This document shows positions 11,359-38,004 of a stretch of DNA of 40,345 bases, in pieces. Every line of letters begins with the position of its first letter. Within the stretch, counting starts at the first letter, position 1. Below the pieces are notes generated by a model. That model saw only the letters and a list, made by a program, of their open reading frames with translations. It was not told the origin of the DNA and did not search any database. This DNA comes from an uncultured Cellulophaga sp. (GTDB taxonomy: Bacteria > Bacteroidota > Bacteroidia > Flavobacteriales > Flavobacteriaceae), in contig CANLIE010000028.1 of NCBI GenBank assembly GCA_947491225.1, forward strand, positions 1 through 40,345. The letters run 5' to 3'. Made by a program: the position numbers and the translations under genes.

Positions 11359-12651
11359 ATGAATTATTACAGTTTAAATAAAAAAGCACCAAACACGTCA
11401 TTTAAAGATGCGGTAATTAGAGGAATTGCTCCAGACAGGGGTTTATATTTTCCTGAAAAGATTAATCCTCTAACTAATGAGTTCTTTTCAATATTAGATT
11501 CCTTGGATAATAATGAAATTGCTTACACTGCTATTAAACAATTTATTGGTGATGAAATACCTACAGAAAAATTAAAAGAAATAATAAAAGAAGTTTTAGA
11601 TTTTAATTTTCCTGTTGTACCTATTGAAGAAAATATAGGTACTTTAGAGCTTTTTCACGGACCAACAATGGCCTTTAAAGATGTAGGCGCTCGCTTTATG
11701 GCTCGCTGTCTGGGTTATTTTTCTGAAGGAAACACTAATGAGATAACTGTTTTGGTTGCCACATCTGGTGATACTGGTGGGGCTGTTGCAAATGGTTTTT
11801 TAGGAGTTAAAGGGGTTAACGTAGTTATACTTTACCCTAGTGGTAAAGTAAGTGAAATACAAGAAAAACAACTAACCACTCTTGGCAAAAACATCACCGC
11901 TTTAGAAGTAAATGGCACTTTTGATGATTGCCAAGCAATGGTTAAAAAATCTTTTTTAGATGAAGATTTATTAAAAAATATGCAGCTTACATCTGCTAAC
12001 TCCATTAATGTTGCTCGTTGGTTACCACAATTGTTTTATTTCCTATTTGCATATAAGCAGGCACTAGCAAAAGGTAAAGAAATTGTTTTTTCTATACCTA
12101 GTGGTAATTTTGGTAACATCTGTGCAGGTATTATAGCACAACAATTGGGTATGCCTGTAAAGCATTTTATAGCAGCTACTAATGTTAATGATGTAGTTCC
12201 TAAATTTATGCAAACTGGTAAATATGAGCCAAAACCATCTAAGACTACAATATCTAATGCAATGGATGTAGGTAATCCTAGTAATTTTATAAGAATTCAA
12301 CATATTTATCAGAATGATTTAAATATTATACGTCAAAACATTTCTTCATATTCTTTTTCAGATGTTGAAACAAAAACAGCAATGAAAGAACTATATGAAA
12401 ATAGTGATTATATTGCAGATCCTCATGGAGCAATTAGTTACTTAGGGCTAAAAAAATATTTAAAAGACAAACCAAACACCTACGGTATTTTCTTAGAAAC
12501 CGCACATCCTGTTAAGTTCTTAGGCGTAGTGGAAGAAACAATAAACAGGAAACTTACAATTCCTTCTCAAATTGAAAAAGTAATGCACAAAGAGAAGAAA
12601 TCCATTAAAATATCTACATACCTAGAGCTAAAAGAATATTTATTAAAATAG
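11359..12651 (+). CDS. thrC: Threonine synthase
   Basis: PLP enzyme that converts O-phosphohomoserine to threonine, the last step of the pathway whose earlier steps are encoded by thrA and thrB about 22 kb downstream. At 430 residues it is the E. coli ThrC-like class. The PLP lysine is K107 in GPTMAFKDVGARF. TSGDTGGAVANGF (near 135) and IPSGNFGNICAG (near 245) bind the cofactor phosphate, and ETAHPVKF lies near the C-terminus. It sits 16 nt behind aroE with no room for a promoter, so it should be read from the DUF368-aroE transcript. This is an unusual place for thrC; see findings. Confidence 0.96.
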   Translation: MNYYSLNKKAPNTSFKDAVIRGIAPDRGLYFPEKINPLTNEFFSILDSLDNNEIAYTAIKQFIGDEIPTEKLKEIIKEVLDFNFPVVPIEENIGTLELFHGPTMAFKDVGARFMARCLGYFSEGNTNEITVLVATSGDTGGAVANGFLGVKGVNVVILYPSGKVSEIQEKQLTTLGKNITALEVNGTFDDCQAMVKKSFLDEDLLKNMQLTSANSINVARWLPQLFYFLFAYKQALAKGKEIVFSIPSGNFGNICAGIIAQQLGMPVKHFIAATNVNDVVPKFMQTGKYEPKPSKTTISNAMDVGNPSNFIRIQHIYQNDLNIIRQNISSYSFSDVETKTAMKELYENSDYIADPHGAISYLGLKKYLKDKPNTYGIFLETAHPVKFLGVVEETINRKLTIPSQIEKVMHKEKKSIKISTYLELKEYLLK

Positions 12652-34400: not shown

Positions 34401-34413
34401 ACAAATCATTTGT
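34401..34413. promoter_or_regulatory. Palindrome overlapping the -33 element of the thrA promoter
   Basis: ACAAAT-C-ATTTGT is a perfect 6-bp inverted repeat that includes the -33 TTTG. It could be an operator or just chance in AT-rich DNA. Confidence 0.3.
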
Positions 34414-34439
34414 TTAAAAAAACAAAAGTACTACATTTG
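34409..34439 (+). promoter_or_regulatory. Consensus Bacteroidota promoter of the thr operon
   Basis: TTTG at 34409-34412, a spacer of exactly 19 nt, then TACATTTG at 34432-34439. This is a full match to the known TTTG-N19-TAnnTTTG consensus and the best promoter in the window. Transcription would start near 34446, about 26 nt before the leader peptide and about 186 nt before thrA. Confidence 0.85.
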
Positions 34440-34471
34440 GGTTATTAATAAGCATTGCTTAAATAAACATT

Positions 34472-34549
34472 TTGGACAACATAACTACATTTTCTATATC
34501 TATTATTACTTGTGTTACAACTAACACAACAATTACCCCAAAGGGGTAA
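34472..34549 (+). CDS. Thr/Ile-rich leader peptide of the thr operon
   Basis: A 25-codon reading frame starting with TTG at 34472 and ending with TAA at 34547-34549. An in-frame stop lies at 34460-34462, and no ATG is available. Thr occupies eight positions (5, 6, 13, 16, 17, 19, 20, 22) and Ile five (4, 9, 11, 12, 21), so 13 of 25 codons call for these two amino acids. The peptide begins DNITTFSIS and ends TTITPKG. This composition, right behind a consensus promoter and ahead of thrA, is the mark of ribosome-mediated attenuation, as in E. coli thrL, which also senses Thr and Ile. It is not homologous in sequence to thrL. Confidence 0.82.
   Translation: MDNITTFSISIITCVTTNTTITPKG
34510..34529 (+). 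promoter_or_regulatory. Pause or alternative hairpin within the thr leader
   Basis: TTGTGTT and AACACAA pair over 7 bp around the loop ACAACT. It covers Thr codons 16, 17, 19 and 20 of the leader peptide, so ribosomes on those codons would melt it. It could be the polymerase pause structure that keeps transcription and translation in step. Confidence 0.55.
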
Positions 34550-34562
34550 TCTTTATATATAA
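34532..34562 (+). terminator. Attenuator hairpin of the thr operon
   Basis: ATTACCCC (34532-34539) pairs with GGGGTAAT (34543-34550) over 8 bp around the loop AAA, followed by CTTTATATATAAT. The stem holds the last codons and the stop codon of the leader peptide. A further hairpin, GTATTG with CAATAC (34578-34595), lies between it and thrA. That it terminates transcription is inferred; the T-tract is interrupted by A residues. Confidence 0.75.
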
Positions 34563-34631
34563 TACACGTCCATTTACGTATTGTTCTCTCAATACAAATA
34601 CATATAAAAATCTATAATTATCTTATTTACA

Positions 34632-37076
34632 ATGAAAATATTAAAGTTTGGTGGAACTTCAATTGACAGTGCCAAAAATATAGAATTGGTAAAAAATATA
34701 GTTTCACAATCTACTTCAAAAATAGCTGTTATTGTTTCTGCTTTTGGTGGTATAACAGACCTTTTATTAGAAGCTGCTAAATTGGCATCATTACATAAAG
34801 GAGGATACAAAAAAATATTCCTTAAAATTGAAGATAAACATATAAATATTATAAAAAAATTAATTCCTATAACTAACCAAAGTAGAGTTTTAAGCACCGT
34901 AAAAAGTGAATTGAATACTTTAGAAACTTTGTTAGAAAGTGCTTTTCTTATTGGTGAAATAACACCAAAACTATCTTATAAAATAGTAAGTTATGGTGAA
35001 TTATTATCCTCTTATATTATTAGTGAATTTTTTATAGCTGAAGAATTGAATGCTATTTATAAAGATAGCAGGGAGCTTATGCAAACAGATTTTAATTATG
35101 ATAAAGCTTACATATCTGATATTAGCAATACTAATAAATTAATATTAGATTTCTTTACTAAAAACAAAAACGCAATAACAGTGTTGGGTGGTTTTATAGC
35201 CTCTTCTACTAACGAAAACTCCTCAACTTTACATCATAGTGGGGCAGATTATACTGCATCTATAATAGCTGCTGCAGTAAATGCAGATAGTTTAGAAATA
35301 TGGACAGACGTTAGTGGTATGTATACTGCAAATCCAAAAATAGTAAAGCAAGCCAAACCCATTAAAAATATATCATATGAAGAAGCAATGGAACTTTCTC
35401 ATTTTGGAGCCAAGGTTTTATACCCTCCTGCCATTCAACCTGTAATGAACAAAGGTATATCCATATACATTAAAAATACTTTTAATCCAGAATCTAAGGG
35501 TACACTAATAACAAAAAAGCATAAAGAAAATGGAAAAACCGTACGCGGTATAAGTCATATAGAAAATATAAGCCTTTTATCTTTGGAAGGCTCTGGTATG
35601 GTAGGTATGCCAGGAATGTCAAAACGTTTTTTTGAAGTTCTTTCTTTAGTAAAAATAAATATTGTATTAATAACACAAGCATCTTCTGAACATTCTATAT
35701 GCATTGCTATTTCAGCGGATGATGTAGCTCTTGCTGAAAAAGCTATAAATGCTGAATTTAAATATGAAATCTCCTTAAAAAAGATTAATTCAGTTCTAGT
35801 TGAAAACAATTTAGCAATCATTGCTTTGGTTGGTGATAATATGAAAAACCATCAAGGGTTAAGTGGTAAAATGTTTAGCACTCTTGGTAAAAACAATGTA
35901 AACATTAGAGTAATAGCACAAGGATCGTCTGAACGAAATATTTCTTCAGTTATAAACAAATATGATGTTAAAAAAGCTTTAAATTCCTTACACGAAGAAT
36001 TTTTTGAAGAAAACACAAAACAACTAAACTTATTTATTATGGGAGTTGGTAATGTTGGTTCTAGATTAATTCATCAAATTAAGCAACAAAGAAAATACTT
36101 AAAAGAAAACCTTAAATTAAATTTAAGAATAATTGGTATTTCAAATTCCAGAACTATGTTCTTCAATGAAGATGGAATCTCTTTAAAAAATTGGGAAGTT
36201 GAATTAACTAATGGAGAAAAAGCAGACAAGGAAGTTTTTTTTAATACTATAAAAAAATTAAACTACAGAAATAGTATTTTTATTGATAATACCGCCAGTA
36301 GTGTAATTTCACAAACATATGCACAATATTTAAGTAACAGTATTTCTGTTGTTACATGTAACAAAATTGCTTGCTCATCTAAGTATAAAAACTATAAAAA
36401 CCTAAAATACTTGGCTCAAAAATACAATGCCCCATTTCTATTTGAAACCAATGTTGGTGCGGGCTTACCTATTATAGATACATTAAAACACCTTATTGCT
36501 TCAGGAGATAAAATTTTAAAAATCCAAGCAATGCTATCAGGAAGTTTAAACTTCGTTTTTAATACTTTTAATGATACAACAACTTTTTATAATGTTGTGA
36601 AACAAGCACAAGAAGAAGGTTATACAGAACCAGATCCTAAAATAGATTTAAGCGGTGTAGATGTTGCTAGAAAAATATTGATTTTAGCTAGGGAAAGTGG
36701 TTATGAAATTGATATAAGTGAAATAGAAAACAATCCTTTTTTATCACAAGAAAGTTTAAACACAACTAATAATGATGACTTTTTTGCATCGCTTACAAAA
36801 GACGAAACTTATTTTCAAAAACTGTATAATGATGCCAAAAAGAACAATTGTATACTTAAATATGTAGCCCAGTTTGAAAACGGCAAAGCAAGTGTTGGTC
36901 TACAACAAATTCCTATAGGGCATACCTTTTACAATCTAGAAGGTAGTGATAATATTGTATTATTTTATACAGAAAGATACCCTAACCGACCTATGATTAT
37001 AAAAGGAGCAGGTGCAGGAGCAGATGTTACAGCTTCTGGTATATTTGCAGATATTATAAGAATAGGAAATTACTAA
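34632..37076 (+). CDS. thrA: Bifunctional aspartokinase / homoserine dehydrogenase I
   Basis: An 814-residue fused enzyme catalysing the first and third steps of the aspartate pathway to threonine, methionine and isoleucine. The N-terminal aspartokinase (about 1-300) has KFGGTS (5-10), GELLSSYI, GGFIASSTNENSSTLHHSGADYTASI (about 186-211) and EIWTDVSGMYTANPK. Two ACT domains (about 311-460) should bind the feedback effector, threonine. The homoserine dehydrogenase half (about 465-814) begins with the nucleotide loop MGVGNVGSR (470-478). It also has TNVGAGLPIIDTL, MLSGSLNFVFN, EGYTEPDPKIDLSGVDVARKILILARE and GAGAGADVTASGIFADI. It is the first structural gene after the attenuator and is followed by thrB after 4 nt. 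Confidence 0.97.
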   Translation: MKILKFGGTSIDSAKNIELVKNIVSQSTSKIAVIVSAFGGITDLLLEAAKLASLHKGGYKKIFLKIEDKHINIIKKLIPITNQSRVLSTVKSELNTLETLLESAFLIGEITPKLSYKIVSYGELLSSYIISEFFIAEELNAIYKDSRELMQTDFNYDKAYISDISNTNKLILDFFTKNKNAITVLGGFIASSTNENSSTLHHSGADYTASIIAAAVNADSLEIWTDVSGMYTANPKIVKQAKPIKNISYEEAMELSHFGAKVLYPPAIQPVMNKGISIYIKNTFNPESKGTLITKKHKENGKTVRGISHIENISLLSLEGSGMVGMPGMSKRFFEVLSLVKINIVLITQASSEHSICIAISADDVALAEKAINAEFKYEISLKKINSVLVENNLAIIALVGDNMKNHQGLSGKMFSTLGKNNVNIRVIAQGSSERNISSVINKYDVKKALNSLHEEFFEENTKQLNLFIMGVGNVGSRLIHQIKQQRKYLKENLKLNLRIIGISNSRTMFFNEDGISLKNWEVELTNGEKADKEVFFNTIKKLNYRNSIFIDNTASSVISQTYAQYLSNSISVVTCNKIACSSKYKNYKNLKYLAQKYNAPFLFETNVGAGLPIIDTLKHLIASGDKILKIQAMLSGSLNFVFNTFNDTTTFYNVVKQAQEEGYTEPDPKIDLSGVDVARKILILARESGYEIDISEIENNPFLSQESLNTTNNDDFFASLTKDETYFQKLYNDAKKNNCILKYVAQFENGKASVGLQQIPIGHTFYNLEGSDNIVLFYTERYPNRPMIIKGAGAGADVTASGIFADIIRIGNY

Positions 37077-37080
37077 AACT

Positions 37081-38004
37081 ATGGAAAATGAAATCAAGGT
37101 ATTTTGCTCAGCAACAATAGCAAATATCTCTTGCGGTTTTGATGTACTTGGGCTAGCCTTAGATGGTATAGGTGATGAAATGATTGTAAAAAAAACAATC
37201 AAAAAAGGTATAACAATCACAAAACTAACAGGACAAAAATTACCTATGGAAACCCATAAAAATGTTGCTGGGGTTGCTGGTTTAGCGTTATTATCAGTTT
37301 CAGATTATAATGGTGGATTTGAAATAGAAATTCACAAAAAAATTAAAGCTGGTAGTGGCATAGGTAGTAGCGCTGCAAGTTCTACTGGCGCAGTATGGGC
37401 AATGAATAAATTATTAGGAGAACCTTTTACCAATATGGAATTAGTAAAATTTGCTATGAAAGGGGAAGAATTAGCTAGTGGTGTTCCTCATGCAGATAAT
37501 GTAGCACCAGGAATTTATGGAGGTTTTACTCTAGTACGTAGTTATGATCCGTTGGATATTATCAAAATTAATACTCCAAAGGAATTATATGCTACTGTAA
37601 TACATCCACAAATTGAGGTAAAAACCTCTGATTCAAGAAAAATATTAAAAACAAACATTTCATTATCAGACGGCATAAAACAATGGGGCAATGTAGGGGG
37701 GTTAATTGCTGGTCTTTATACAGAAGATTATGATTTAATAAGTAGATCTTTAAAAGACCATATTGTAGAACCAATACGTTCAATTCTTATTCCTGCTTTT
37801 GATGCTGTAAAATCAGAATCTATGCAAGTTGGTGCTTTAGGCTGTGGAATATCTGGTTCTGGACCATCAATTTTTGCATTAAGCAAAGGAAAAGAAAATG
37901 CTTTAAAAGTAGCAGCAGCTATGAAAGGCGTTTATAACAAAATAGGAATAACATATGATATATATGTATCCAGTATAAATTTAGAAGGTGTTAAAATAAT
38001 GTAG
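37081..38004 (+). CDS. thrB: Homoserine kinase
   Basis: A 307-residue GHMP-superfamily kinase that phosphorylates homoserine to O-phosphohomoserine, the substrate of threonine synthase. Motif 1 region: ATIANISCGFDVLGLAL (11-27). The ATP loop GSGIGSSAASSTGA spans 91-104. GVPHADNVAPGIYGGF follows near 138. Motif 3 is GCGISGSGPSIFAL near 258-271. Length is normal. It starts 4 nt after thrA and is certainly co-transcribed. Instead of thrC, the next gene is a DUF349 protein after a 154-nt gap. Confidence 0.96.
   Translation: MENEIKVFCSATIANISCGFDVLGLALDGIGDEMIVKKTIKKGITITKLTGQKLPMETHKNVAGVAGLALLSVSDYNGGFEIEIHKKIKAGSGIGSSAASSTGAVWAMNKLLGEPFTNMELVKFAMKGEELASGVPHADNVAPGIYGGFTLVRSYDPLDIIKINTPKELYATVIHPQIEVKTSDSRKILKTNISLSDGIKQWGNVGGLIAGLYTEDYDLISRSLKDHIVEPIRSILIPAFDAVKSESMQVGALGCGISGSGPSIFALSKGKENALKVAAAMKGVYNKIGITYDIYVSSINLEGVKIM

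Follow-up and report, generated by a model that had tools for sequence, protein, structure and literature searches.

The window considered here, i.e., the whole analysed stretch of 40,345 nt from an uncultured Cellulophaga sp. (contig CANLIE010000028.1), encodes ThrA and ThrB, preceded on the same strand by a promoter-like site, a short leader frame and three predicted hairpins, denoted P1, P2 and P3:

34409..34439, + strand: promoter-like sequence TTTG-N19-TACATTTG (TTTG-N19-TAnnTTTG), from a pattern match and comparison with relatives
34472..34549, + strand: leader frame of 25 codons plus stop, with a TTG start, 8 Thr and 5 Ile codons and the end TPKG
34510..34529, + strand: P1, an 8-bp hairpin within the leader frame (fold)
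34532..34550, + strand: P2, an 8-bp hairpin whose 3' arm includes the leader stop codon (fold, conservation, model)
34551..34577, + strand: linker, predicted to be unstructured, an A/U stretch followed by GTCC (base frequencies, fold z +0.30)
34578..34595, + strand: P3, a 6-bp hairpin ahead of thrA (fold, covariation)
34632..37076, + strand: thrA, bifunctional aspartate kinase/homoserine dehydrogenase (NF006959, 1008 bits)
37081..38004, + strand: thrB, homoserine kinase (NF002288 and TIGR00191)

The fold predicted for the thrA leader region surpasses those of all shuffled versions (200/200; z -3.98), and the window has no Rfam hit at or above a family's gathering score. The leader frame agrees in length, Thr and Ile content and TTG start (TTG at 34472, TAA ending at 34549) with the one put forward in an earlier, sequence-only reading of this DNA, as does P2, whose 8 pairs begin at codon 21 and end one base past the stop codon. 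The same reading had placed a 7-bp hairpin over the Thr cluster of the frame; the hairpin is present, but has 8 pairs, and the reading had missed both the conserved linker and the covarying hairpin P3. The promoter coordinates given earlier are correct. The bare TTTG-N19-TAnnTTTG pattern is not rare, with 2.19 occurrences expected in the window from shuffles; a TAnnTTTG box is found upstream of the leader at all 18 loci of the genus and, for 93 of 100 family leaders, in the 190 nt preceding P2, compared with 41 of 100 on the other strand.

A leader frame with P2 precedes thrA in all 18 genomes of the genus. The start codon at the leader position is TTG in seven of these, ATG in 10 and neither in L011, and the frame ends, over the hairpin, with TP followed by L, K or M and then G (18/18). 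At L004 and L005, the stop is lost at P2 and the frame continues for four codons, whereas the leader stop of L008 is TGA. Within the family Flavobacteriaceae, thrA was detected at the cut-off in 120 of 149 genomes, and we considered 127 upstream regions, 18 from the genus and 109 from the 119 other genomes with thrA. P2 was found by script in 107 of the 127; among the remaining 20, L050 and L116 have P2 by eye, L136 carries a canonical attenuator and 17 have no such leader. The comparison of relatives suggested earlier accordingly finds the Thr/Ile-rich frame ahead of thrA conserved both in the genus (18/18) and family-wide. The counts below refer to 100 leaders, i.e., the 107 minus seven that are displaced or degenerate (L053, L061, L063, L101, L121, L131 and L132), although L053 and L061 look like true members. 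L121 (genome G066) is peculiar in that its P2 is a perfect 14-bp palindrome and its frame has few Thr codons.

In all 100 leaders, the first base of the stop codon lies -2 to +19 nt from that of the P2 3' arm, and no further than +12 in 92. Covariation of the arms, another check proposed from the sequence, was assessed in the 91 leaders on which the P2 model was also built, close relatives having been dropped, and is apparent on part of the measures: cells with two-sided change number 54, compared with 38.1 in shuffles, and the covariation score is.140, compared with.103, with neither value reached in any of 500 shuffles (0/500), whereas the numbers of pairs with two-sided change (4 vs 3.7) and of pair types (9 vs 9.7) are not above the shuffles, such that P2 fails to exceed them on two of five measures. 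Thirty-three genomes were searched with a model covering P2 and the linker, with 150 candidates scored in each. Of 22 family genomes, most of which had contributed to the model, 21 had the thrA leader as their top match, with E at 1e-5 or lower, and in those 21 no other match fell below E 0.05; G025, which has thrA and no visible leader, gave no match. Among 11 genomes from outside the family, none of them in the model, the best match lay beside thrA in six (E 1e-4 to 0.3) and elsewhere in one, and four had none. Given that G258, G212 and G239 possess the hairpin by eye and have no match, the model misses distant forms.

The Thr and Ile codons crowd into the seven codons before the P2 loop, where their combined fraction, from codon -1 to codon -7, is 1.00,.90,.81,.52,.65,.73 and.69 (100 leaders), Thr at -1 being forced by the ACCC anchor and the frame having initially been picked for Thr and Ile; at codons -8 to -14 the fraction is.20-.42. 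When the frame is set by the hairpin instead, 72% of the six codons before the ACC codon are Thr or Ile, compared with 5% and 2% in the other frames, and this frame is open for at least 18 codons in 99 of 100 relatives, compared with 47 and 51 for the other two. Since a ribosome shields about 12 nt downstream of the codon being read, according to PMC4833913, we infer from the geometry that a stall within the last seven codons (-1 to -7) would cover the 5' arm of P2. The control codons are limited to that zone, in agreement with the supposition of the sequence-only reading that a ribosome stalled on Thr codons 19-22 would lie over the arm.

On these grounds, we consider it somewhat probable that the thrAB leader is a Thr/Ile-sensing leader-peptide attenuator of a variant type, in which the stalled ribosome itself blocks P2. 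The most likely sensor would be the ribosome on the Thr and Ile codons, and the most likely switch P2 under the stalled ribosome. The leader would be translated by ribosomes, which, when charged Thr- or Ile-tRNA is scarce, would stall within the seven codons that precede the P2 loop; with the ribosome over its 5' arm, P2 could not form, and RNA polymerase would proceed into thrAB. When Thr and Ile are both plentiful, the ribosome would arrive at the stop codon in P2 and be released, P2 would fold, and transcription would be ended shortly downstream without a canonical U tract, by a weak intrinsic stop or by Rho. Besides the two covariation measures on which P2 does not exceed shuffles, further points count against this reading. 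P2 would likewise be covered by a ribosome that has reached the stop codon, so that timing must matter, and 17 of the 127 family loci lack a leader of this kind, with L136 having a canonical one instead.

The thrL leader of Escherichia coli is the classic Thr/Ile leader-peptide attenuator. As in thrL, a short frame rich in end-product codons, here Thr and Ile, stands ahead of thrA, and ribosome stalling is the natural reading; unlike in thrL, the hairpin includes the leader stop, the control codons run into the hairpin, and there is neither a detectable antiterminator nor a canonical U tract. A thrL-like attenuator with a hidden antiterminator might be read from the position of P1 upstream of P2, where a pause hairpin would be, and from one weak signal among 20 segment-swap tests between genomes (92 loci, split into groups of 41 and 51), namely between the 5' arm of P2 and the sequence downstream (z -2.3, p 0.011). 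The same swaps revealed no upstream partner for either arm of P2; P1 itself showed cognate preference with z -3.9 in one group and -1.0 in the other. Moreover, P2 pairs with the upstream leader no better than with a shuffled leader (mean z 0.05, n = 100), whereas the antiterminators of his and trp leaders are detected by the same test (z -2.65 and -1.48, respectively; 22 leaders each). The earlier claim that a separate antiterminator is missing is thus upheld as far as this test detects one and, considering also the lack of a canonical U tract and of an Rfam match, we regard the thrL-like alternative as very improbable.

The his and trp leaders derive from the same cells and, like the thr leader, contain control codons in a leader frame. 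Classic leaders with His and Trp runs were found by pattern in 22 of 22 genomes each, including the source genome, where L182 ahead of hisG and L248 ahead of trpE are classic attenuators carrying leader peptides, antiterminator elements and U-tract terminators. The differences from the thr leader concern the separate downstream terminators and the detectable antiterminators: in his and trp, the median distance to the hairpin is 60 and 56 nt from the last control codon and 36 and 35 nt from the stop codon, whereas the thr control codons run into the hairpin.

A further difference pertains to the sequence that follows the hairpin. P2 had been labelled a terminator with a short A/T tail, and a simple scan does list it as terminator-like, with 5 T in 8 bases (8 such sites in the stretch vs 5.2 by chance); the A/T tail exists, but no U run in it exceeds three, and in the lack of a canonical U tract the label is doubtful. 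In the 100 relatives, the 8 nt after the P2 stem contain 3.28 U on average, near background (5 in the window), and the best 8 nt near the stem contain 4.52, with at least 6 U in 11 of 100; neither the U tract of a thrL-type intrinsic terminator nor the U residues of a tlrB-type one are seen. By comparison, his and trp terminators from 22 of these genomes have 6.76 U (21 scored) and 6.86 U (22 scored) in 8 nt, a richness indicating that these cells do use U tracts in classic attenuators. Consequently, a stop near P2 is an assumption of the occlusion scheme. One form that the scheme could take, with P2 as a weak intrinsic terminator followed by an A/U-rich tail, gains from the scan result and from positions +12 to +18 from the start of the P2 3' arm, which are nearly free of G and C and leave room for a weak intrinsic stop. 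It loses from the U counts, so much lower than those of his and trp in the same genomes, and from the report that termination at the tlrB leader is nearly abolished by C residues directly after the hairpin (PMC6851288); we consider this form unlikely.

Alternatively, P2 might be no terminator at all, and Rho might load between P2 and thrA once the ribosome has been released, with the stalled ribosome, or the loss of a pause stabilised by P2, freeing the polymerase. From P2 to the thrA start, the RNA is C-rich, G-poor and open, with a C/G ratio of 2.50, 7% G and 0.102 YC dimers per nt (n = 100), compared with C/G ratios of 1.06, 1.26 and 0.72 in the 80 nt ahead of hisG, trpE and ilvD (22 each), and the predicted lack of structure in the linker and of a canonical U tract would fit such a readout. 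The composition is Rho-site-like, but composition says little by itself; the C-rich stretch would be left uncovered by a ribosome stalled ahead of P2, and P2, the most conserved element, would play only an indirect part. This Rho-gated form of the preferred explanation appears possible, if somewhat unlikely.

The hairpin P3 has no place in ribosome occlusion of P2 and is explained by neither the Rho-gated nor the weak-terminator readout. Over the 100 relatives, the P3 window folds with z -2.43, compared with -1.57 for P2, -0.93 for P1 and +0.30 for the linker. In 29 loci, which were chosen from the group with four-nt loops after P3 had first been noticed, P3 pairs in 93.5% of cells, with 21 two-sided changes compared with 5.8 in shuffles (0/500), 5 pairs with two-sided change compared with 3.2 (22/500) and 10 pair types compared with 8.7 (139/500). 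The P3 tail is not terminator-like. These properties, together with the position of the A/U-rich, unstructured linker between two conserved hairpins, lend themselves to post-transcriptional control, whereby the leader would influence how the mRNA is processed, how stable it is or how thrA is translated, e.g., through cleavage in the linker, with P3 guarding the new 5' end. However, neither P2 nor P3 pairs with the thrA start in the folds of the 44 loci shown, and the leader keeps no fixed frame relative to thrA, the stop-to-ATG distance modulo 3 being distributed as 32, 40 and 28; control at this level seems rather unlikely. The putative occlusion switch would act through Rho, through a weak intrinsic stop or at a later step. 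In addition, GGAC at the leader start (34474-34477) can pair with GTCC after P2 (34568-34571), enclosing the leader. This possible long-range pair is predicted in the folds and has weak comparative support, with one compensatory change in the 18 genus loci (L011) and swap-test z values of -1.9 and -0.5 in the two groups.

Direct prevention of a hairpin by a stalled ribosome has been described for the tlrB (yxjB) leader of Bacillus subtilis, for which no overlapping antiterminator was identified (PMC6851288). The thr leader resembles tlrB in the overlap of a stalled ribosome with the hairpin, here by geometry only, and in the lack of a detectable antiterminator, but tlrB senses tylosin through an arrest motif, depends on an intrinsic terminator that requires U residues and, in addition, conceals the ribosome binding site (PMC6851288). 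Short frames with branched-chain codons overlap hairpins in actinobacterial ilvB leaders as well, although in that case the hairpins precede poly-U runs and act in a way that was called unclear (PMC1262725). Closer to the present case, strong clues of leader-peptide attenuation ahead of amino-acid operons are reported, in general terms, for Flavobacterium psychrophilum, a member of the same family (PMC9723704). Given that occlusion, leader-hairpin overlap and leader attenuation in the family have already been reported, the thr leader would represent a variant of such attenuation; a thr leader of this design is not described in the available portions of the open-licence literature searched (including PMC9723704, PMC7366714, PMC2864571, PMC6851288, PMC1262725, PMC4833913 and PMC2965389).

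We tentatively suggest, with slightly less than even confidence, that the phylum harbours a distinct class of leaders, whose switch would be a single hairpin containing the leader's own stop codon, with ribosome occlusion alone deciding its state and the conserved open linker and P3, not an intrinsic terminator, providing the readout, in cells that retain classic attenuators for his and trp. One cell would then appear to build the same kind of sensor in two ways, with a terminator and antiterminator for his and trp and with a stop-codon hairpin, lacking a detectable antiterminator, for thr. The conserved and easily mutated thr system could show whether transcription can be set by nothing more than a stalled ribosome, and bears on whether Rho or an unusual terminator is the executor. 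To our knowledge, there is little experimental work on termination in the phylum Bacteroidota.

Beyond thrA, the leader was sought at several related loci. In the other 17 genomes of the genus, a second ThrA-like match falls within an open frame roughly 1130 codons long; the source genome has no second match at E 1e-100, and no such leader precedes the second ThrA-like gene of relatives at the 12 loci read (L021-L032). None was seen by eye at 23 ilvD upstreams. In the source genome, a thrC match lies at 11554-12546 of the window, away from thrAB; thrC is also distant in G004 and G008, and close to thrA in G001, G017, G142 and G105. By eye, no stop-codon-hairpin leader occurs at the distant thrC of the source genome, G004 and G008 (L296, L299).

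Both designs recur ahead of thrA. Within the family, L136 (G160) presents a natural swap of designs, in which a canonical Thr attenuator with a U-tract terminator replaces the stop-codon hairpin. Outside the family, 49 of the 85 other genomes of the phylum have a match, and the 41 upstreams read by eye comprise 10 with a stop-codon hairpin, five with a canonical Thr attenuator (L211, L212, L213, L218 and L221) and 26 with neither. The stop codon is in or overlaps the loop, by eye, in L195-L199, L202 and L203 from other families. L208, L210 and L217, which belong to a single other family, share an ACGGG/CCCGT hairpin whose loop contains the leader stop codon; in L208 and L210 this loop is GTAA or GTGA, i.e., a GUAA or GUGA tetraloop holding the stop codon.
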